A DNA stretch of 64,000 nucleotides from positions 248,001 through 312,000 of the forward strand of contig NZ_JAFBIY010000002.1 of the NCBI RefSeq assembly GCF_021531975.1, read 5' to 3'. Shown piece after piece: positions 3,998-23,257 of this stretch. This DNA comes from Faecalicatena contorta. Lineage in GTDB: Bacteria; Bacillota; Clostridia; Lachnospirales; Lachnospiraceae. Numbering within the stretch: the stretch's first letter is position 1; each line of letters starts with the position of its first letter. The translations under genes and the position numbers were made by a program. Below the pieces are notes generated by a model. That model was not told where the DNA came from. It worked only from the letters and a program-made list of their open reading frames with translations, and made no database searches.

Positions 3998-4479
3998 ATC
4001 TCCACCTCCTGTTCTGTTTTCTTTATTGCCTCTATGATTTCATCATAGCTCTGCACTTTTCCAAGAACTTCCAGGAATTCTTCATGCGCCAGGAGTCGTG
4101 CCAGTGCTGCCAGAATTCTGAGATGCTGCATTTTTCCGTCTTCTCCTACGATAGCCATCGTGAAGATGAATTTTACTTCTCCTTCTTCACCGTGAGACTG
4201 GTATAAAAACGGAGTGTTTACTCTGCAGAAACCTACACCAGGCTTTACAACCTCATCACATATGCCATGAGGCATAGCAAGAAGATTACCAATATATGTA
4301 GGACCTTCTGCCTCTCTTGCATGCAGCGCTTCTTCAAACTTCTTCGCATCTGTAACGATTCCGTTCTCAGCGAACTTCTCTGACATAAATGCAAACAATT
4401 CATCTTTGTCTGCAAATGTTTCTTTGTCAAGAATTGTCATTTCCGGAAGCAGCACTTCCGATATGTCTACTGTGTTCAT
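3988..4479 (-). CDS. PTS fructose/mannitol-family subunit IIA
   Basis: This 163-residue PTS_EIIA_2 protein accepts phosphate from HPr on a histidine and passes it to IIB. The phosphohistidine is His71 in the motif NLLAMPHG. Other family features are the DKDELFAFM helix and the C-terminal RILAALARLL segment. It overlaps the IIB gene by 10 bp and lies 11 bp after the aldolase gene, so it is firmly in the operon. A homologous IIA domain also forms the C-terminus of the regulator at 5422. Confidence 0.94.
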   Translation of the reverse strand: MNTVDISEVLLPEMTILDKETFADKDELFAFMSEKFAENGIVTDAKKFEEALHAREAEGPTYIGNLLAMPHGICDEVVKPGVGFCRVNTPFLYQSHGEEGEVKFIFTMAIVGEDGKMQHLRILAALARLLAHEEFLEVLGKVQSYDEIIEAIKKTEQEVEICT

Positions 4480-4489
4480 ATATAATCTC

Positions 4490-5386
4490 CTATTTTGCGT
4501 TAATACGGTCTACACGGAATGCAGATAATACTTCTTTTCCGTAGTTCTTAATATATTCGTAAGCTGCCTCAGCTAATTCATGATACTGAATCTTGCCTTC
4601 TCTTTCAGCAACAACGTCTGCGCAGTGCTGAGCAGCACCCTTTCCAATGTATGAGTAGTAGTTTACTTTTGAGCATCCGGCTGTGATTGCCTGCTGAATC
4701 TGGCTGAATTCAACACCAGAAGCACCATGCATAACGATACGTGTATCATCTTTTACAGAGCTTCTGATTGCTTTTACTCTGTCAATGTCAAGTACCGGTG
4801 GCTCTGCATAAATACCATGCATTGTTCCAAAGCAAACTGCCAATGCATCACAGTTTGTTCTTTCTGCAAACTCACCTGCTTCTGTAGGATCTGTGAAGAA
4901 TTTGCGGATATCTGCATTTGTCAGAACTCTCTTCTCAGCATCTTCACCTTCATGTGTATCTTCTGCAGTAGATGCCATAATTCCAAGCTCAGCCTCTACA
5001 GTAATGTCTCTTGCATGTGCGAAGTCTACAAATTCTTTTACACGCTTAACATTCTCTTCAAATGGTAATGCGCTGCAATCGAACATGATTGAGGAGAATC
5101 CTGCTTCCAGTGCTTTCATAAGGAATGTATAGCTTACGCCGTGATCCAGATGTACACATACCGGAACTTTAGCCTTCTTAGCTGCTTCTACCATAAGCGG
5201 GCCCTGACGCTCGATCGGAATCAGTGAATTGTGCACTTCTGCATGGTCAATGATGATTGGTGTATCCAATTCTTCTGCTGCATTAATTAATGCTCTGAGC
5301 GTTTCCATATTCGGTGTATTGATACATGGAATAGCATATCCTTTTTTCTCTGCATCTGCTAAAATTTCTCTTAAATTTACTAACAT
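4490..5386 (-). CDS. Class II ketose-bisphosphate aldolase (GatY/KbaY/FbaA family)
   Basis: This zinc-dependent aldolase splits a ketose-1,6-bisphosphate (fructose, tagatose or related) into dihydroxyacetone phosphate and an aldehyde. The 298 residues show the family's metal and substrate sites: VCVHLDHG (residues 76-83, with His82 as zinc ligand), the VEAELG strand near 130, FGTMHGIYAEP (His190) and RIVMHGASG (His220). It lies between the regulator and PTS subunit genes, so its substrate probably derives from the PTS sugar. The exact sugar cannot be assigned. GatY-type and FbaA-type enzymes look alike at this level. Confidence 0.92.
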   Translation of the reverse strand: MLVNLREILADAEKKGYAIPCINTPNMETLRALINAAEELDTPIIIDHAEVHNSLIPIERQGPLMVEAAKKAKVPVCVHLDHGVSYTFLMKALEAGFSSIMFDCSALPFEENVKRVKEFVDFAHARDITVEAELGIMASTAEDTHEGEDAEKRVLTNADIRKFFTDPTEAGEFAERTNCDALAVCFGTMHGIYAEPPVLDIDRVKAIRSSVKDDTRIVMHGASGVEFSQIQQAITAGCSKVNYYSYIGKGAAQHCADVVAEREGKIQYHELAEAAYEYIKNYGKEVLSAFRVDRINAK

Positions 5387-5421
5387 AGCTCCTCCTTATT
5401 GTCATGAAATTTTCATGAATA

Positions 5422-7311
5422 TCATATGGTTTTATTTGAATGGTGCGCACCATATTCACAGTTTAATACGAGCTGCCGGATCTCTTTTGGAGAACCTGCC
5501 TCGCGAATCTGTCCTATCAGTTCTTCTTCCTTAAGGACATTGTACATGTGGCTGAATATCTTTTTGATATCCTCTGCTTCTTCGTCGCCGATCGCAAAGA
5601 GGAAGATAAGATCTGTCCATTCCTCTTCTGCCCATCTTACATTATTCTTAAGCCTTGCAATGGCAACACTGCTTTCCAGGACATGATTTTTATATACATG
5701 TGGGATTGCCACTCCGTTTCCGATGGAGGTTGCCAGTACTTTTTCTCTGTCAAGTGCCTCCTTAAGGAAACCTTCTTCCACACAGCCCTGTTCCATTAAT
5801 CTATCTGAAATCTTCTCAAGTGCGTCTGCTTTACTTTTCGCTACGATATCGTAGACCAGCTCCTCACGGAATACTCTTCCAAGTATCTCTCCCTTATGCA
5901 GCCCGTTTTTTACAAGCCTCTTCTTTATGATGTCTACATCTGCATCTGTCACATGCTTTGTAATACATACAAGATTCGGAGCTTCTTCCTTAAGTGCTAC
6001 GGTGGATACCACCAGCGCTCTCTCATAATTCTCCAGCCGGAAGTCTCTGTAATGAATGACCTCTTTAAAATGAATATAGGGAAGCTCTTCCTTAAGCTTA
6101 GCAAGATTGTAATAACTTACTTCTTCATTCGCAGCGGTCACATATACCGCTTCTTTTCGCTTCTTCTTCATAAAGTTATGGATGAGAAGCACAATTCTTG
6201 CAATATCATCTTCCTGAAACTTAAGTCCGGTCGGTCTCTCCAGAATGTATATCTGCATCATACAGACAGCATACAGACCGGCAAGCCGTACCTTTACTCC
6301 CTTACTCAGATTAGTCCAGTCATAAATGCGGTAATTCTTCCGGTAACGCATCCTAGTAATCAGGTCTTCCACGTTGGCAATGAGTTCTTCATCACCTATG
6401 CTATAGTAACGACCAGCAACATTTCTTACTTCTTCCAAATACTGCTCGATCTCATCATGGTAACCACTTTTTCTCTGGGTTATATGCACAGTATCCGCCA
6501 CAAAAAGTCTTGCTGCGAGAAATCTTCTTTCGTATTTCCAGCATTCGTCATTTTCGTCGATGTACAATGACAGAAATATTTCTGCTGCCTTCAAATACTT
6601 CCCACTGACTTTCAGTCGTTCTTCCTCCACATAGGACAGAATGCATTTCCCCAGTTTCAGCCGTTCTCTGGTAATCATCAGGTATTCCATCAGTCTGCCG
6701 AACGCCACATCTGTAAATACAGTCTCTGTCTGTTCTTCCATAGAAAGAAGTGCATCCTGTATATCCCACAGATCTTCTGCACACTCCGGATAAAAATTAG
6801 AGAGAAACGTCCAGGCTCTGTTACTGAGTCTTACATCAAGTTCTGCCGGAGGCTCCAGATAATCTTCATTCCACCATTTCTGATTGTTGTACATGATCAG
6901 TGCCTGCCGAATTTCAAATTCGTGACCTTCAATAACAATACCACTGTTCTTGCGTGTCGCAATCTTTACATGAAACGGTTCCAGAAAACTATTCAGATAT
7001 TTCAAATCTCTGGAAATAACATTCCTGCTTACATACAACTCTTCTGCCAGAAGCTGTACCGTATAATTTCCCTGATACCGAAAGACTGTCTGAAAGATAT
7101 AATCCCTTCGGAATCCCTCGGATACCGGATTGTGATTTGAAAACCACAGAAGCACATTTTCCAGCTCTGTCCGCTGTTCTTCCGTAGCCTCAACGTACAT
7201 TCCTTTCTGAGGAACACTCACAAGAGTAGCTCCATGCTCTCCGAGCAATTCCCTTACAGACCCCAGATTATGCTTTATACTACTTACTGAGACTCCAATC
7301 CGCTCTGCCAA
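5422..7311 (-). CDS. PRD-domain transcriptional regulator with EIIB/EIIA-like domains (BglG/MtlR type)
   Basis: This large regulator has an N-terminal winged helix-turn-helix, two PTS regulation domains in the middle, an EIIB-like segment near residues 395-480 and a C-terminal EIIA-like domain with the phosphohistidine motif GNGVAIPHVYKNHV. Such proteins switch PTS operons on or off according to phosphorylation by HPr and EIIB. The position given is the first conventional start (TTG at 7311), but this has no spaced ribosome site and would remove the first helices of the DNA-binding domain. The same frame continues to 7380 with codons that clearly extend the HTH (GNISTQELAERIG). There is then a TAG at 7387-7389, with an in-frame ATG at 7401 four codons further upstream. 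The true start is therefore either a rare ATA at 7380 behind GGAGAAGAGG, or the gene is damaged. It lies 36 bp upstream of the aldolase gene. Confidence 0.88.
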   Translation of the reverse strand: MAERIGVSVSSIKHNLGSVRELLGEHGATLVSVPQKGMYVEATEEQRTELENVLLWFSNHNPVSEGFRRDYIFQTVFRYQGNYTVQLLAEELYVSRNVISRDLKYLNSFLEPFHVKIATRKNSGIVIEGHEFEIRQALIMYNNQKWWNEDYLEPPAELDVRLSNRAWTFLSNFYPECAEDLWDIQDALLSMEEQTETVFTDVAFGRLMEYLMITRERLKLGKCILSYVEEERLKVSGKYLKAAEIFLSLYIDENDECWKYERRFLAARLFVADTVHITQRKSGYHDEIEQYLEEVRNVAGRYYSIGDEELIANVEDLITRMRYRKNYRIYDWTNLSKGVKVRLAGLYAVCMMQIYILERPTGLKFQEDDIARIVLLIHNFMKKKRKEAVYVTAANEEVSYYNLAKLKEELPYIHFKEVIHYRDFRLENYERALVVSTVALKEEAPNLVCITKHVTDADVDIIKKRLVKNGLHKGEILGRVFREELVYDIVAKSKADALEKISDRLMEQGCVEEGFLKEALDREKVLATSIGNGVAIPHVYKNHVLESSVAIARLKNNVRWAEEEWTDLIFLFAIGDEEAEDIKKIFSHMYNVLKEEELIGQIREAGSPKEIRQLVLNCEYGAHHSNKTI

Positions 7312-15680: not shown

Positions 15681-17099
15681 CTAATCTAAATTTATGATCC
15701 TGTCCGAAATATCTTCTACATATTCTTCTCTTGACTTAATGATGACAACGGAAGTTCCGCGCACTGCAAACTTCTTGACATAATCTTTTACAATTGACAC
15801 GCCGTACACGTCGCACTGAGCAAACGGTTCCAGAAGAAGCAGCACCTTGGGGTTGTAAATATACCATCGTTCCAGTGTGATACTGATAATTTCATTAATT
15901 TCCAGATTTCCTGCTGCAATATCCGTATTCAGCGCACTTTCGTCAATATTTTCCTCCAGCATTCGTGAGATCTTACCGGAAGACGCAATATATTCCAAAG
16001 CGGATATCTTTCGTAGTGATGGAAGCAGCAGATTCTCTCCAACCGACATACCGGCGAATATTTCCTCTTCACTACCCATATGCATAACTGAAACGATTTT
16101 CTGCCTGACGTATTCTGAAAAATCCACATTGCTGATCTGATTGTTTTCCAGTATACACTTTGTACTTTCCTCTTCTTTTCTTCCGGACAGCAGCATAAAT
16201 ATTCTTTCTTTTTCCTTACTGTCCAGAACAAGCAGCGATACAACCTCCCCTTTTTCAAAATCCAGCTCTCTGTGTTCTCCATTTTTCATTTTCAAGCCGT
16301 GTACCCGGTATACCTTCTCCGGTAGTGCATGTGGTCCCTCTATGTAGCTGTCCCGCTCTCTTTCAACCGTCATTGTATTACTGTCAAGCAGAAACCTTTC
16401 CATGTGTTCGCTGCTTTTTATATACTCTTTTTTACACTTCTTTACGATACGTCCTTTTTTGAAGATGATGTATTTATCCGATAAAATGGAAAGTACATTG
16501 TCTGAATTCGTATTTACAATCACAGCCATACCATCCATAATAAGCCTCTTCATAATATTTCGGAATTTCTGGATAGACTCCGCACGCATCCCTTCAAATT
16601 CATCCTCGATCAGAACAACTCTCGCACCATGGATTTTTGCTTTTACAAGATCAACGATTCTTTTCTCCAGCTCACTAAGCTCCCGCATCTTTCGCGATAC
16701 ATCGAATGGAATTTCCAGTTCGTCAAAATAAGCGGCCGTCTTTTCTTCCAACGCCCGCCTTTGCCATATCATTCGAAGCCAGCCTGCACTGACAAGTCCA
16801 ATGTACTCTGCCACGCTCCAGTCGTCAATGACATAATTAGAAGCTGCCACACGATATACTTCTTCCTTCAGTCTTGTGCGGTTCAGTACACGTTTACCAC
16901 AGATATAAATCTTCTGGCTACTTATATTTTCCTCTATATCCCCACACAAAAAGCGCGCCAGAAGATTCTTGCCGGAATAGGTAAGACCTGCAAATCCAAT
17001 ACATTCCCCTTCCAGCACACAGAAAGAGATATTCTGAAGCTTCCTTGCAGAAGCACCACTATAATTGAGATTATTTACCCGCAGTATTTCTTTCTTCAT
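15681..17099 (-). CDS. Degenerate double ABC-ATPase-like protein linked to a two-component system
   Basis: The layout is like RbsA (two cassettes, about 472 aa), but the key motifs are eroded. The first Walker A reads GLTYSGKNLL, the signature LSELEKRIVDL and Walker B VVLIEDEFEG. The second cassette has no recognisable P-loop (LLVLDSKEKERIFMLLSG) and a Walker B of VLLLLEPFAQCD. Hydrolysis is therefore doubtful in both halves. The frame opens at 17180, but the ATG at 17099 matches the start of the cassette (MKKEILRVNNLNYSG) and gives a 29-bp overlap with the kinase gene. It is the last gene of the RpiB/two-component operon and precedes the intact transporter. A role as adaptor between transporter and sensor is inference. 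Confidence 0.82.
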   Translation of the reverse strand: MKKEILRVNNLNYSGASARKLQNISFCVLEGECIGFAGLTYSGKNLLARFLCGDIEENISSQKIYICGKRVLNRTRLKEEVYRVAASNYVIDDWSVAEYIGLVSAGWLRMIWQRRALEEKTAAYFDELEIPFDVSRKMRELSELEKRIVDLVKAKIHGARVVLIEDEFEGMRAESIQKFRNIMKRLIMDGMAVIVNTNSDNVLSILSDKYIIFKKGRIVKKCKKEYIKSSEHMERFLLDSNTMTVERERDSYIEGPHALPEKVYRVHGLKMKNGEHRELDFEKGEVVSLLVLDSKEKERIFMLLSGRKEEESTKCILENNQISNVDFSEYVRQKIVSVMHMGSEEEIFAGMSVGENLLLPSLRKISALEYIASSGKISRMLEENIDESALNTDIAAGNLEINEIISITLERWYIYNPKVLLLLEPFAQCDVYGVSIVKDYVKKFAVRGTSVVIIKSREEYVEDISDRIINLD

Positions 17100-18111
17100 C
17101 CGTACGCTTCTCACTCCTCCCGTAATCTGCCGGAACCGTGATCTCCACATCTGTTCCCTGTCCAACTGTACTATAAACATTCACTCCATATTCTTCACCA
17201 AACAGAAGCTGGATACGCTTATGAATATTTGGAAGCGCAATTCCCGTATTCCTCTCTCGACCCTGTTTTGCGTCCTCCAGTTTGTTGCCCGGAGAATGAA
17301 TTCTCGCATTGATCTTTGAAAGTTCATCCTTGGGGATCCCTTTTCCATTATCCGAAATCGTAATGATAAGATGCTTTTCAGTCACAATGACCTCAATAAT
17401 AACACGGCCGCCCTCCAGCTTCTCCTCCAGTCCATGGAAAATAGCATTCTCTACGACCGGCTGAATGATCAGACGCGGAATCTGAAAATCATATGCCACT
17501 TCATCCTCTTCATCAATAATAATTTCGAGAGAAAACCGGTTATTAAAACGATATCTCTGTATCAACATATAGTTATTAATATTGGCAATCTCATCACGGA
17601 GCGTAACAAGATTTCCCTTCCTGCTTATACTATATCTGAAAAATGCTCCCAGAGCCTCTACCATCTTGGCAATCTCAAAATTATCATCCATAAGCGCCTG
17701 CCCACGGATAGACTCCAGCGTATTATACAGAAAATGCGGATTGATCTGACTTTGCAGTGCCGTAAGCTCTGCCTGCTTGTCAAAGATCGCCGCCGAATCT
17801 CTTCTCGTCCTCTGTGTAGAATATCTTTCAATCAGATATTCCACCTCTGCAATATACGGAACACTCCCTGCTCGTCTTACAAGTTCTGCTTCTTCGCTTT
17901 CCTCCTGAGACAATGTATCCAGCACTTCCTCAAAACTCTTAAGCGGCTGTGATATCGCCACATTAACATATAACATCACTGCCATCTGCAGCAGAATAAC
18001 CAGAAGTACCGGCCAGAGCGGATAATCCATTCGTTCGAAGACAGCCGCCGTGATCAACAGAAATAATACATTTGCCAGAAGAGTTCCCCTCAATTTAATT
18101 CCCAGCTTCAT
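17071..18111 (-). CDS. Sensor histidine kinase, LytS/YesM type
   Basis: The 346-residue kinase has two N-terminal membrane segments (residues 8-25 and 32-54) separated by only a few residues, so it lacks a sizeable extracellular sensor. A helical linker leads to the His_kinase domain with NPHFLYNTLESIRG (phospho-His126) and the ATPase domain with the N box (PVVENAIFHG) and G box (SDNGKGIP). This is the YesM/LytS class. Its partner is the AraC-type response regulator just upstream (10 bp). With no sensor domain of its own it may read its signal through another protein, for example the degenerate ABC protein that overlaps its 3' end or the binding protein. Confidence 0.92.
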   Translation of the reverse strand: MKLGIKLRGTLLANVLFLLITAAVFERMDYPLWPVLLVILLQMAVMLYVNVAISQPLKSFEEVLDTLSQEESEEAELVRRAGSVPYIAEVEYLIERYSTQRTRRDSAAIFDKQAELTALQSQINPHFLYNTLESIRGQALMDDNFEIAKMVEALGAFFRYSISRKGNLVTLRDEIANINNYMLIQRYRFNNRFSLEIIIDEEDEVAYDFQIPRLIIQPVVENAIFHGLEEKLEGGRVIIEVIVTEKHLIITISDNGKGIPKDELSKINARIHSPGNKLEDAKQGRERNTGIALPNIHKRIQLLFGEEYGVNVYSTVGQGTDVEITVPADYGRSEKRTDEERNTAGK

Positions 18112-19750: not shown

Positions 19751-20191
19751 TTACTTGTCCTCAATTGCCATGATCATATCCACTCTTGTCTGATGTCTTC
19801 CACCCATAAATTCCGCATTCAGCCATTCATCAATAATCATTTTTGCCATCTCAACTCCGATTACTCTCGCACCAAAAGCCAGTACATTCGTATTGTTATG
19901 CTGTCTGGAAAGCTTTGCTGAATACGGTTCTGAACAGACGACTGCACGTACACCCTTTACCTTATTTGCCGCGAGTGAAATACCCACTCCGGTTCCACAG
20001 ATGAGGATACCAAGGTCCACTTCGCCTGATGCGACTGCACGTCCGACTTTCTCACCATACTCCGGATAATTACAGCTGTCGTACGTATCCGTTCCATAAT
20101 TCACTACTTCAATTCCTTTTTCCTGCAGAAATTTTACAATATCATTCTTCATATCAACTGCTGCATGATCATTACCAATACCGATTTTCAT
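19751..20191 (-). CDS. rpiB: RpiB/LacAB-family sugar-phosphate isomerase (canonical copy)
   Basis: This 146-residue enzyme isomerises aldose and ketose phosphates (ribose/ribulose 5-phosphate in classical RpiB). The conserved sites are intact: GIGNDHAAVDMK at the N-terminus with His9, the catalytic Cys65 in LICGTGVGIS, and the RQHNNTNVLAFGARVIG segment with the second His. RpiB relatives also act on allose, galactose or erythrulose phosphates. It is 26 bp from the response regulator and about 130 bp after a second rpiB paralogue. Given the DAK-family kinase operon nearby, D-erythrulose 4-phosphate is a possible substrate. Confidence 0.92.
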   Translation of the reverse strand: MKIGIGNDHAAVDMKNDIVKFLQEKGIEVVNYGTDTYDSCNYPEYGEKVGRAVASGEVDLGILICGTGVGISLAANKVKGVRAVVCSEPYSAKLSRQHNNTNVLAFGARVIGVEMAKMIIDEWLNAEFMGGRHQTRVDMIMAIEDK

Positions 20192-20269
20192 ACTTAACTT
20201 CCTCCGCTTCTATACATATTCTTATTTCTTATATATTATAAAGGTTAAAAATTTAAAGCGCAACAAAAT

Positions 20270-20308
20270 TGTACCCCGGGGTGTTTTTCAAAAACACCCC
20301 GGGGTACA
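20270..20308. repeat. Perfect 19-bp-stem palindrome with CCCCGGGG core
   Basis: The arms TGTACCCCGGGGTGTTTTT and its exact complement enclose a single C. The arm itself contains the palindrome CCCCGGGG. It sits between the two rpiB genes. On neither strand does a clean U-tract follow the outer stem, so it is not a textbook terminator; it could slow RNA polymerase or protect the upstream mRNA. A related short palindrome is at 63011-63026. Confidence 0.85.
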
Positions 20309-20321
20309 TTAACGTTTTTTC

Positions 20322-20762
20322 TTATCTTTCGTTGTCATATTTAACAAAAGCGTCTACCTTTGGCTGTGAAGAACATCCCGGTACGAACTCATTTGTCAGG
20401 AAAGCTTCTGTCATAAGCTCTCTCTCTTTACTTCCTGTTGTAAATGCGCCCATACATGCGATATTTGCATCATTGCTCAGGCGGGCTCTCTGTGCTGAAT
20501 ATACATCAGAAAGCAGTGCTGCATAAGCACCTTTTACTTTATTCGCAGCAATGGATACTCCGAGTCCTGTTCCGCAGATCAGAATACCACGGTCATATTC
20601 CTTTGAAGCCACAACTTCACCAACTTTGATCGCTACATTTGCATAAATCGGGTCTTCGCTTCCGAAGTCTGTTACTTCGCCGTATCCTTTTGCTTCGATG
20701 AATTTAATAAGTTCTTCCTTAGCAGCCTGTGCGTTCGGGTCGCATCCAATTGCAATTTTCAT
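20322..20762 (-). CDS. RpiB/LacAB-family isomerase, divergent paralogue
   Basis: This 146-residue RpiB homologue keeps the catalytic Cys63 motif LICGTGLGVS but differs at other normally conserved positions. The N-terminal SDHAG-type motif is GCDPNAQ, with Pro where His is usual. The RxHNxxN segment reads RLSNDANIACMG, so the second His is also replaced. These changes suggest another phosphosugar substrate. It is the first gene of the operon that continues with rpiB and the two-component system, and has a promoter at 20801-20829. RpiB-type enzymes of this kind occur in some sugar-phosphate microcompartment loci, which fits the adjacent pta and deoC. Confidence 0.88.
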   Translation of the reverse strand: MKIAIGCDPNAQAAKEELIKFIEAKGYGEVTDFGSEDPIYANVAIKVGEVVASKEYDRGILICGTGLGVSIAANKVKGAYAALLSDVYSAQRARLSNDANIACMGAFTTGSKERELMTEAFLTNEFVPGCSSQPKVDAFVKYDNER

Positions 20763-20890: not shown

Positions 20891-21982
20891 TTACTTATTT
20901 ACCTGAAGACATGTAATCGCTACAACTCCGACGATATCTTCTGCAACGCATCCTCTGGACAGGTCATTTACCGGTCTTCGAAGGCCTTGTGTAATCGGAC
21001 CATAGGCTTCCGCTTTTGCCAGTCGCTGTACTAATTTATATCCAATGTTTCCACTGTTTAAATCAGGAAAGACAAGTACATTTGCATTTCCTGCCACATT
21101 GCTTCCCTTGCTCTTCATCTGGCCGACTTTCTCATCAACTGCTGCATCCAACTGCAATTCACCATCGATCTTAAAATTCGGATATTTTTCTTTTACCCGT
21201 TTAGCAGCAGAAATAATTGGTTCTAATCTCTTATTTTTAGCGCTTCCTTTCGTAGAATAGGATAACATTGCTACAATAGGCTCCTGCTCTGTTATCTGTT
21301 CAAAGCTCTTTGCCGATGATACTGCAATATCCATCAATTGTTCTTCATCAGGAAATTCTACCAATCCCGAATCTGCAAAAAGGAAAACACCATCATTGCC
21401 ATATTTACAATCCGGAACAACCATAAGAAAATAAGCAGAAACAGTCTTAATGCCCTCAGCTGTCTTCACAATCTGAAGTGCAGGTCGCAGAGTATCACCG
21501 GTCGAATGACACGCATCTGCCACCATTCCGTCAACTTTTTTCTCGCGCACAAGCATTGCTCCATAATACAAAGGGTCTTTTAATAATTCCTCTGCTTTTT
21601 CTTTCGTCATTCCTTTTTTCTTTCTCAGTTCACACAACGCATCAACAAATACTGGATAATCTTTACTATTTTTATAATCCAGCACTTCTATGTTCGAATT
21701 GTCGATTTTCTCCTGATTCGGCATCTTTTTTCCATTATCAGATAACAGAAGGATTCTTGCGATCCCCTCCTGTGCGATTTTTACAGCTGCTTCCGTTACT
21801 CTTTCATCATAGCTCTCCGGAAGTACGATCAAACAATTTTTTTCGCTGCACGCGCCTTCACCTTTTGAATTACATGGTTGGATCACCATAAGTCTGACTC
21901 CTGACAAATTTTCATCTTTCTTCGTTGCAACCACGGTACCTATCACCCTTGCAATCTGCATTTCCAATAATTCTTGCTGCAT
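20891..21982 (-). CDS. Phosphotransacetylase (Pta) with EutN-like microcompartment vertex N-terminus
   Basis: Residues from about 45 to the end are a phosphate acetyl/butyryltransferase: CLIVLPESYDERVTEAA at the start, DACHSTGDTLRPALQIVKT, LSYSTKGSAKNKRLEPI and NANVLVFPDLNSGNIGYKL. It should interconvert acyl-CoA and acyl phosphate. The first 35-40 residues are not Pta. QIARVIGTVVATKKDENL followed by VRLMVIQP matches the opening of EutN/CcmL/PduN pentameric shell proteins. The normal Pta N-terminus (about 15 residues) is missing. This looks like an in-frame fusion of the 5' end of a shell gene to pta. I chose the ATG at 21982, preceded by GGGAGGGAAG; an ATG at 21961 would begin exactly at the EutN start. 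Whether the fused protein is active is unknown. Confidence 0.85.
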   Translation of the reverse strand: MQQELLEMQIARVIGTVVATKKDENLSGVRLMVIQPCNSKGEGACSEKNCLIVLPESYDERVTEAAVKIAQEGIARILLLSDNGKKMPNQEKIDNSNIEVLDYKNSKDYPVFVDALCELRKKKGMTKEKAEELLKDPLYYGAMLVREKKVDGMVADACHSTGDTLRPALQIVKTAEGIKTVSAYFLMVVPDCKYGNDGVFLFADSGLVEFPDEEQLMDIAVSSAKSFEQITEQEPIVAMLSYSTKGSAKNKRLEPIISAAKRVKEKYPNFKIDGELQLDAAVDEKVGQMKSKGSNVAGNANVLVFPDLNSGNIGYKLVQRLAKAEAYGPITQGLRRPVNDLSRGCVAEDIVGVVAITCLQVNK

Positions 21983-22086
21983 ACATAAAAGCACTTCCCT
22001 CCCTAATGATCCATTATTTCAGAAAGAAAAGTGACCCATTTCTTTTCAAGCTTCTCCATGGGCCACGTTCTCTCAACATATGTCTT

Positions 22087-22161
22087 TTAATAATTATTTG
22101 AAGCTACTATATCTACTCTTCCTGACGGGCACTTTTTCTGACATGCGCCACATCCAACTCA
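22087..22161 (-). pseudogene. In-frame continuation of deoC past TGA: [4Fe-4S] ferredoxin-like tail
   Basis: After the TGA of deoC (22161-22159) the same frame stays open for 23 codons to TAA at 22087. It encodes VGCGACQKKCPSG followed by RVDIVASNNY. If the TGA position were Cys the motif would be CVGCGACQKKCP, a complete C-x2-C-x2-C-x3-C-P cluster site. The tail is therefore either cut off by a nonsense change of a Cys codon or read through by selenocysteine insertion. No convincing SECIS hairpin with a GGU loop is seen directly after the TGA. Confidence 0.6.
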
Positions 22162-22923
22162 CTTATGTTCAGCCACTTCTGGTGCGCCAGAAAGAATTCC
22201 CTTTGCACTACTTGTTCCGATACGTGTTGCTCCCGCATCTATCATAGCCTTTGCTGTTGCATAGTCACGAACACCGCCGGATGCCTTTACACCCATATCC
22301 GGTCCAACAGTCTGGCGCATGAGTCTGATATCTTCAACCTTGGCGCCTCCTGTAGAGAATCCTGTAGAAGTCTTAACAAAATCTGCACCTGCTAATTTAG
22401 CAATTGTACATACTTTAACTTTCTCTTCATCAGTAAGAAGACAAGTTTCAATGATTACTTTTACTAAAGCTTTTCCTCTTGCAGCCACAACAACTTCTTC
22501 AATATCCTGTTTTACATACTGCCAGTCGCCAGCTTTTGTAGCGCCGACGTTAATAACCATATCGACCTCATCTGCACCCTTTTTGATCGCATCAATTGTT
22601 TCAGCAACCTTTGTATTTGTTGTACATGCTCCTAAAGGGAAACCGATTACACAGCATGTCTTAACGCCAGAACCAGCCAATTCCTTTGCAACCAATGGAA
22701 CATACCAGGAGTTTACACATACAGAAGCTGTCTTATATTCTCTTGCTTCTTTACAGATCTTAATAATCTGATCTGGTGTAGCATCAGCTTTTAATAATGT
22801 ATCATCCAGATATTTTGCCATATCCATCTTTGATGAACCACATGCGGCAGCAAAACTTGTATCTGCTGATACTTTTTTATAAATTTCTTCTGTAATTTCC
22901 GCATTTAATTTCTCAATATCCAT
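22159..22923 (-). CDS. deoC: Deoxyribose-phosphate aldolase with N-terminal extension
   Basis: DERA reversibly splits 2-deoxyribose 5-phosphate into acetaldehyde and glyceraldehyde 3-phosphate. The core is clear: [22 protein letters not shown], the Schiff-base Lys184 in [14 protein letters not shown], and VKASGGVRD. At 254 aa it is about 30 longer than usual. The extra N-terminal residues begin with a likely amphipathic helix ([16 protein letters not shown]) and a short linker, the form of a microcompartment encapsulation peptide. The substrate-side motif reads [11 protein letters not shown] where HTLL is common. A cluster-binding tail follows the stop codon in frame. A promoter is proposed at 23002-23030. 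Confidence 0.93.
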
Positions 22924-23001
22924 ATTTACTCTCTCCTTTATTTAGGTAAAATCAATTTAAGCCTGTTGTAGTCTTCACCTCTAAAATGTTGATGCTATTT
23001 T

Positions 23002-23030
23002 TTTATATCATATCTTGCTTTATATTACAA
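23002..23030 (-). promoter_or_regulatory. Possible promoter of deoC
   Basis: Minus-strand TTGTAA (23030-23025) and TATAAA (23007-23002) are separated by 17 bases in an AT-rich stretch about 75 bases before the deoC start. The elements are imperfect. Confidence 0.45.
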
Positions 23031-23130
23031 TAAAGCCTGATACAAATCCGGATATAAGTTTTCCTATCAATACAACAAATGCTTTGCCGCCCGGACCTCT
23101 TCCAAGATCAGACCCTATTGACACTCCCAT
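23020..23130 (-). CDS. Small hydrophobic ORF of unknown function (36 aa)
   Basis: ATG at 23130 follows AAGGAG with a six-base spacer, an excellent ribosome site for so small a frame. The peptide has a Gly-rich first half (SDLGRGPGGK) and one hydrophobic segment (AFVVLIGKLISGFVSGFIVI) that could span a membrane. The frame is open for about 16 codons upstream of the ATG, so it may also be the 3' end of a lost gene. I recognise no family. It fills part of the 386-base gap between deoC and cstA. Confidence 0.4.
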   Translation of the reverse strand: MGVSIGSDLGRGPGGKAFVVLIGKLISGFVSGFIVI

Positions 23131-23257
23131 GATTAGCTCCTTAAGCTTCCATACGGAGTGGCCAATGCGATTTTACTACCTTATGTATGGAGTATAATTC
23201 TTCCGAAAACAAGGACCGATATGCAGTCATTGCATTCGCATTTGGAATCAATACGAC

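Follow-up and report, generated by a model that had tools for sequence, protein, structure and literature searches.

Sugar phosphate utilising (SPU) loci, first named as such in PMC4207490 according to excerpts of that paper, have in common, in the parts of PMC8217296 that describe them, an aldolase (DeoC) and an isomerase (RpiB). In the SPU4-like microcompartment deoxyribose-5-phosphate is thought in the literature to be converted to acetaldehyde, then to acetyl-CoA and finally to acetyl-phosphate. Microcompartment loci with a decayed component have also been described: in excerpts of PMC9164163, atypical carboxysome loci with a degraded csoSCA are regarded by the authors as selected and not as tattered remnants. 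The locus described here likewise carries a decayed microcompartment component, but in contrast to those carboxysome loci it has lost its whole shell and reads as a remnant. It lies in a 64,000-nucleotide stretch of Faecalicatena contorta DNA (the window), where the start of a EutN-type vertex gene runs into a phosphotransacetylase (Pta) gene.

Scanning a collection of species genomes with the whole fusion protein (best 80 of 377; records very near that of the window may be left out) yielded nine sister loci, L066 to L074, at 69-82% identity. The preliminary description of the fusion had proposed looking for intact eutN and pta in sister strains; all nine loci have unfused genes, in the order deoC, eutN1, eutN2, eutN3, pta. 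An rpiB gene stands between eutN1 and eutN2 in five of them (L066, L069, L070, L071 and L074). Upstream, six loci (L067, L068, L070, L072, L073 and L074) encode a TIM-like protein, an unknown protein, an aldehyde dehydrogenase (AldDH), an RnfC-like protein, BMC-T and two BMC-H proteins; the L066 sequence starts within the operon, past the TIM-like gene, and L071 is cut by a contig end. Pfam searches on ten L074 proteins assigned a family to nine and gave no match for one, and were also run on the EutN2 and Pta proteins of that locus. In L069, from a Candidatus Mediterraneibacter, AldDH leads straight to BMC-H at 4143-6284 without the RnfC-like and BMC-T genes, which may be an independent, earlier stage of reduction. 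The SPU4 label of the sister operons comes from excerpts of PMC8156839 that name Dorea sp. D27, the source of L073, among the SPU4 organisms, and is partly checked, since no RpiB was found in the examined stretch of L067, L068, L072 and L073, where the protein may be encoded elsewhere. These relatives appear to use a shelled compartment to process sugar phosphates.

Remains of a shell operon in the window

The window locus resembles the SPU4 loci closely in sequence and order for deoC, the starts of eutN1 and eutN2, pta and fragments of the BMC-T gene (Table 1). Unlike them it lacks any hexamer or trimer gene and any complete vertex gene, as well as the operon AldDH, the RnfC-like protein and a BMC-type rpiB; further differences are the fusion of eutN and pta and a deoC that is cut short. 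Both BMC-H genes are gone from the locus, as judged by tblastn and blastn with the sister sequences, and of the shell genes that mark an SPU locus (BMC-H and BMC-P) fragments are all that is left. The stretch holding the BMC-T scraps reads as an ORF of 36 residues with no Pfam match. The gldA-like fragment next to it is opposite in orientation and meets the BMC-T leader exactly at 23153, so that rearrangement, for example an inversion, probably took place as well as deletion.

Table 1. Features of the degraded locus, with their positions in the window
Feature	Position	Strand	Evidence
Fusion ORF	20891-21994	minus	ORF list and translation; 367 aa
pta part of the fusion	20891..21856	minus	PF01515 positions 12-319; 82% identical to L074 Pta residues 12-326
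Joint 2, eutN2 to pta	21833..21865	minus	crossing marked by GGTGAA; Pta frame recovered at the following run of 7 A
eutN2 codons 1-35 (first strands of the vertex protein)	21857..21961	minus	PF03319 positions 1-36 and DNA identity to L074 eutN2
eutN1 5' end (leader, start ATG 21986, about 9 codons), joint 1	21950..22002	minus	blastn to L074 8385-8437, 79%, E 5e-7
Shine-Dalgarno GGGAGGG, inherited from eutN1	21997..22003	minus	read from the sequence
Untranslated remainder of the deoC Cys-rich tail, still readable	22087..22158	minus	blastn of 22085-22155, 85% to L074, 90% to L066
deoC (deoxyribose-phosphate aldolase)	22159..22923	minus	TIGR00126 E 5e-83; premature TGA
deoC N-terminal helix resembling an encapsulation peptide	22864..22923	minus	by form only; changes I7N, D12E
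BMC-T 3' end up to the former BMC-H start, 80-bp fossil	22974..23053	minus	blastn to L066 4302-4385, 80%, E 2.4e-12
BMC-T codons ~128-143, 48-bp fossil	23059..23106	minus	blastn to L074, 81%, E 6.6e-7
BMC-T leader and first codons (MGVSIG), 40-bp fossil	23114..23153	minus	blastn to L074, 93%, E 3.6e-10
gldA-like dehydrogenase gene fragment, inverted relative to the BMC remnants	23153..23234	plus	blastn to L069, 78%, E 7e-13; named by reading and L069 ORF similarity

The genome that holds the window (G000; 2.44 Mb in 34 contigs, 99.98% complete) contains no PF00936 (BMC) shell domain and no second EutN at E<=10. The search of this genome for other shell genes came back empty, which rules against a satellite shell locus. 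The operon AldDH has no close copy there (best match 33% identical), nor has the RnfC-like protein, whose main matches are 34% and 39% identical, a level of 47-64% being reached over short stretches. For the TIM-like, unknown and RpiB proteins of the sister operon the search covered the window. The suggestion that the gene might be a fossil of a lost microcompartment is thus well supported: the shell genes are gone, and scraps of BMC-T, eutN1 and the deoC tail adjoin the fusion. A BMC domain is present at E<=1e-10 in 118 of 397 genomes of the family. Seven of the 397 match the DeoC of L074 at E<=1e-80, three of them from residue 1 (G000, G427 and G222), and the window genome is the only one of the seven without a BMC domain.

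Two RpiB-like genes downstream were examined as candidates for the operon RpiB (PF02502) and rejected, being 42% and 35% identical to the protein of the sister operon. These adjacent, dissimilar RpiB/LacAB-like genes (19751-20762, minus strand) may encode a two-subunit isomerase of another sugar pathway; the genes that follow them encode an AraC-domain response regulator, a sensor kinase (so named by reading) and a sugar ABC transporter. In the same region, at 15681-17180 on the minus strand, lies a diverged sugar-type double ABC ATPase whose best NCBIfam match (94.6 bits) is far under the cut-off. It shares an overlap with the end of the sensor kinase ORF and has a substrate-binding protein and a normal ATPase gene nearby; it is perhaps a regulatory or decaying copy.

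The DeoC-type aldolase of an SPU locus is present (PF01791, E 2.4e-19). It is 91% identical to the DeoC of L074, with the alignment running across the premature stop, and the TGA stands at the first Cys of a C-terminal CxxCxxCxxxCP tail, a position that is Cys in all nine sisters. Its two changes at otherwise invariant sites, I7N and D12E, both fall within the first 20 residues, which hold 12 of the 152 such sites (P 0.006, in a test devised post hoc). Such clustering would be expected of a targeting helix that no longer has a shell to enter.

The DeoC of every sister operon ends in the Cys-rich tail (for example L074:7985-8053, corresponding to 22087-22161 of the window), which resembles a motif for a single 4Fe-4S cluster. 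Past the operon pta, L074 (15652-16410) and L066 (from 9255 onward) have a further deoC whose N-terminal helix is similar. The L074 copy has no Cys-rich tail, and the L066 copy is cut by the contig end.

A EutN-Pta fusion with at least two joints

As the preliminary description had proposed, the gene carries a EutN-type N-terminus on a Pta that lacks its own. Residues 12-47 of the ORF match positions 1-36 of the 83 in PF03319 (EutN_CcmL; 40.2 bits against a cut-off of 25, E 5.1e-10), and residues 51-362 match PF01515 (PTA_PTB) from position 12 to its end at 319 (E 2.7e-111). The 47 residues from MQIA on, searched alone, match PF03319 at E 1.7e-11, so that both profile searches suggested at the outset returned significant matches. 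At the DNA level, 21857-21964 is 82% identical to the eutN2 of L074 over 108 bp (blastn, E 5e-26), and 33 of the 35 EutN residues agree with L074 EutN2, with 15 synonymous and 3 nonsynonymous differences. The EutN-Pta match is not due to chance.

Compared with the EutN/CcmL vertex proteins, the fusion has the first 36 profile positions and none of the rest, and with the remainder of the domain missing we would expect it to form no pentamer. Nor would there be anything for a vertex pentamer to cap, as the genome has no PF00936 shell gene. With phosphotransacetylases (for example the solved chain 1qzt) it has the catalytic body and the aligned catalytic residues in common; it differs from them in that the N-terminal helix (MDFMEQIKKRAAKK in L074) is replaced by EutN and a seemingly frame-shifted stretch, and in an Asp for a conserved Gly. 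Homology to the sister Pta proteins begins at 21847 (tblastn). The frame is free of stops for 356 codons.

An in-frame deletion between a shell gene and a downstream pta had been offered as the origin of the gene. The part of this that holds is the gene order, pta lying downstream of the eutN genes in all nine sister loci. The single in-frame event is not supported: there are at least two joints, one leading from the start of eutN1 to the start of eutN2 and the other from eutN2 codon 35 to the 5' end of pta, and the latter was apparently out of frame. At joint 1 the matches to the eutN1 and eutN2 of L074 overlap at an ATGCAG-like stretch. The two frames differ there, so that the eutN1 start, ATG 21986, opens a frame of 24 codons that reads MYAARIIGNADCKGDRYRGCNEER and stops; it is not the frame of the fusion. 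The claim that the ribosome site of the shell gene now serves pta is therefore only partly correct. The Shine-Dalgarno sequence does come from a shell gene, but from eutN1, a different vertex gene from the one fused, and as the ATG it served is off-frame, the fusion must start 4 nucleotides further on or elsewhere. ATG 21982, taken as the start in the preliminary description, is one candidate among several in this frame, which include GTG 21994 and ATG 21961. The arrangement looks poor and argues against an active enzyme. A scan for promoters and terminators found no more than chance would give (8 where the mean is 7.1, and 2 where it is 1.4).

At joint 2 the fusion reads GACSEKNC past eutN2 codon 35, and a neighbouring frame reads KVKARAAKK, resembling the Pta N-termini QVKIRAAQKK (L067) and QIKKRAAKK (L074). 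The off-frame KARAAK is identical to KKRAAK at five of six residues, a level reached by none of 20000 shuffles for this stretch, which was picked post hoc. Positions 21842-21856 thus appear to be pta codons ~8-13 in the wrong frame. GGTGAA occurs both in the eutN2 of L074 and in the 5' end of pta in one of the nine sisters (L068). Reading this history from the window and the nine sisters, we consider that the joint-2 deletion was probably out of frame and that the Pta frame was probably restored by one A fewer in the run that follows, which has 7 where the native frame needs 8.

A 70-residue query across the junction found matches at E<=1e-5 in 14 of the 397 family genomes and matched over its whole length in the window genome only. 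The other matches cover one part, or both parts at separate places, with the exception of G040, where residues 21-69 of the query are spanned by an ordinary Pta with its native N-terminal helix (locus L159). Three genomes whose matches start before residue 40 among the matches listed (G165, G221 and G178) were rejected as carriers, for these matches cross a stop codon and belong to ordinary Pta genes with unrelated upstream sequence. Had the N-terminus been a usual feature of Pta proteins in genomes without shell genes, the reading as a fusion would have been in doubt; among the 397 family genomes the EutN N-terminus is joined to Pta in the window genome alone, a single genome that is also the sole representative of its genus. 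EutN is present in 30 of 116 relatives, and the other 35 EutN matches all reach position 83 of the profile, only the one in the window being partial. Among the titles and abstract beginnings listed by our searches of an open-access library, neither a EutN-Pta fusion nor this decayed locus was noticed.

Conservation and descent of the Pta part

The solved chain 1qzt matches the Pta part at E 9e-103, and the residues aligned with the catalytic R87, R133, S309, R310 and D316 of 1qzt are kept in the fusion. In the V[AS]GA motif, however, the fusion has Asp where Gly stands in all 99 other motif matches (93 distinct ORFs among the loci compared); the search pattern fixes the flanking residues, so that the count covers the Pta proteins that fit it, and all four matches with Asp are the window gene. 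The same Gly is kept in all 27 other Pta rows of our alignment. It corresponds to Gly123 of the 1qzt sequence, ten residues before Arg133, and its replacement argues against an active enzyme. The window Pta departs at 4 sites from residues that every other sequence shares, this Gly being one of them; the corresponding number for each of the nine sisters is 0 to 6.

Codon models gave an omega of 0.021 on the window branch for both pta and deoC, against 0.061 (pta) and 0.047 (deoC) elsewhere; these values are rough, as synonymous change is saturated, the window branch includes the time before the fusion, and the one fixed tree used places the window beside L066 and L074, for which the pta trees give no firm support. 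The control tips are also low (pta, 0.024 for L074 and 0.016 for L069; deoC, 0.031 and 0.035, respectively), and the low omega is therefore not special to the window. The deoC trees group the window with L066 and L074 at a support of 100. The Pta protein tree does so at 58 only, and in the Pta DNA tree L066 and L074 join L069 at 90 with the window outside. Identity to L074 is likewise only 82% for the Pta part, against 91% for deoC and 33 of 35 residues for the eutN2 piece. Given this greater divergence and the conflict between the trees, pta may have been exchanged with another lineage or may have evolved faster after the loss, which the simple account of a decaying operon does not explain.

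In a structure model of the fusion (alignment rows trimmed), the pLDDT by block of ten residues is 84-98 in the Pta body and 48-61 in residues 1-40, with strands at residues 4-11 and 23-30. In an earlier model, in which the N-terminus was misaligned with the Pta helix, residues 1-36 were below 50.

Searching the window's own genome for PTA_PTB returned five matches: the window gene, a second, complete Pta on contig C21, an ORF on contig C11 that is matched in two pieces, and one weak match below the cut-off. The Pta on C21 adjoins an acetate-kinase-like ORF, and the ORF on C11 adjoins AldDH and a butyrate-kinase-like ORF, both kinases being named by reading.

Origin and fate of the fusion

Comparison with the sister loci makes it very probable that an SPU4-like microcompartment operon fell apart at the window locus, and that the fusion is a by-product of decay and not a designed tether. 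For a deliberate fusion, which the preliminary description had also entertained, no positive evidence was found. Set against the nine sisters, the locus has lost the BMC-H genes, the operon AldDH, the RnfC-like and TIM-like proteins and rpiB, and its BMC-T has collapsed to three scraps. The deletions behind these losses, which also joined eutN1 to eutN2 to pta, probably took place at short repeats. The EutN part would then be a passenger of about two beta strands of the vertex domain, its truncation leaving no pentamer to be expected; it stands where Pta otherwise has its N-terminal helix, and model confidence is high for the Pta body that follows. The surviving DeoC is probably soluble, and its targeting helix may be starting to decay.

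The fusion has close to an even chance of still being an active cytosolic Pta, and the same chance of being dying or dead; with a second pta elsewhere, beside an acetate-kinase-like gene, either state would be tolerable. That the gene is a pseudogene in the making, poorly started, catalytically damaged and open only because it arose recently, comes somewhat short of an even chance. The Shine-Dalgarno of eutN1 leads to an ATG that opens a frame of 24 codons, the V[AS]GA motif carries the Gly-to-Asp change, the neighbouring deoC has a premature stop, and the genome has its second pta, all of which fit this account; yet the fusion keeps 356 codons without a stop, the residues aligned with the catalytic ones of 1qzt, an omega of 0.021 on its branch and a number of changes at otherwise invariant Pta sites that lies within the range of the other sequences. 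The frame was, moreover, apparently regained after an out-of-frame joint, as might be expected if selection acted on Pta activity at some time once the genes were joined. A further, unlikely reading is that an organelle pathway is turning soluble: after loss of the shell, selection would have kept deoC and pta and restored the frame of pta, and the vertex piece would be the working N-terminus of a cytosolic enzyme.

It is highly improbable that the chimera was kept because the EutN hairpin is itself useful, for example by stabilising the Pta dimer in place of the lost first helix. Near-identity of the EutN segment to L074 with few nonsynonymous differences, and the two strands of the structure model, are what such an exaptation might leave; but the model confidence of this region is low, the constraint on the segment may all predate the fusion, and the chimera is known from a single genome, no other place among the 397 family genomes spanning both parts with the EutN N-terminus. 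Just as improbable is a sequencing or assembly artefact, in which the run of A is really 8 long or the contig is chimeric. Homopolymer errors are common on some sequencing platforms, and a run of 8 A would put the Pta codons before it into their native frame and break the frame from EutN2 to Pta. A wrong count would, however, alter the frame and not the fossil, and it is hard to see how an artefact could strip a genome that is 99.98% complete of all its shell genes and also leave the BMC-T scraps and the stop in deoC nearby.

On the preferred reading, that of a wrecked operon with the fusion as its by-product, the locus captures an event that in our judgement is seldom visible, the loss of a whole organelle operon, of which our literature searches turned up no other case. 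Deletion joints, a collapsed shell gene, a seemingly eroding targeting helix and a shell-enzyme chimera all lie within ~2.4 kb. The fusion illustrates a route by which a shell domain can become joined to an enzyme without design, and it calls for caution in surveys of domain architecture, where EutN followed by Pta would be read as a tether of cargo to vertex. The locus also offers a natural test of what the enzymes of a microcompartment pathway do without their shell.
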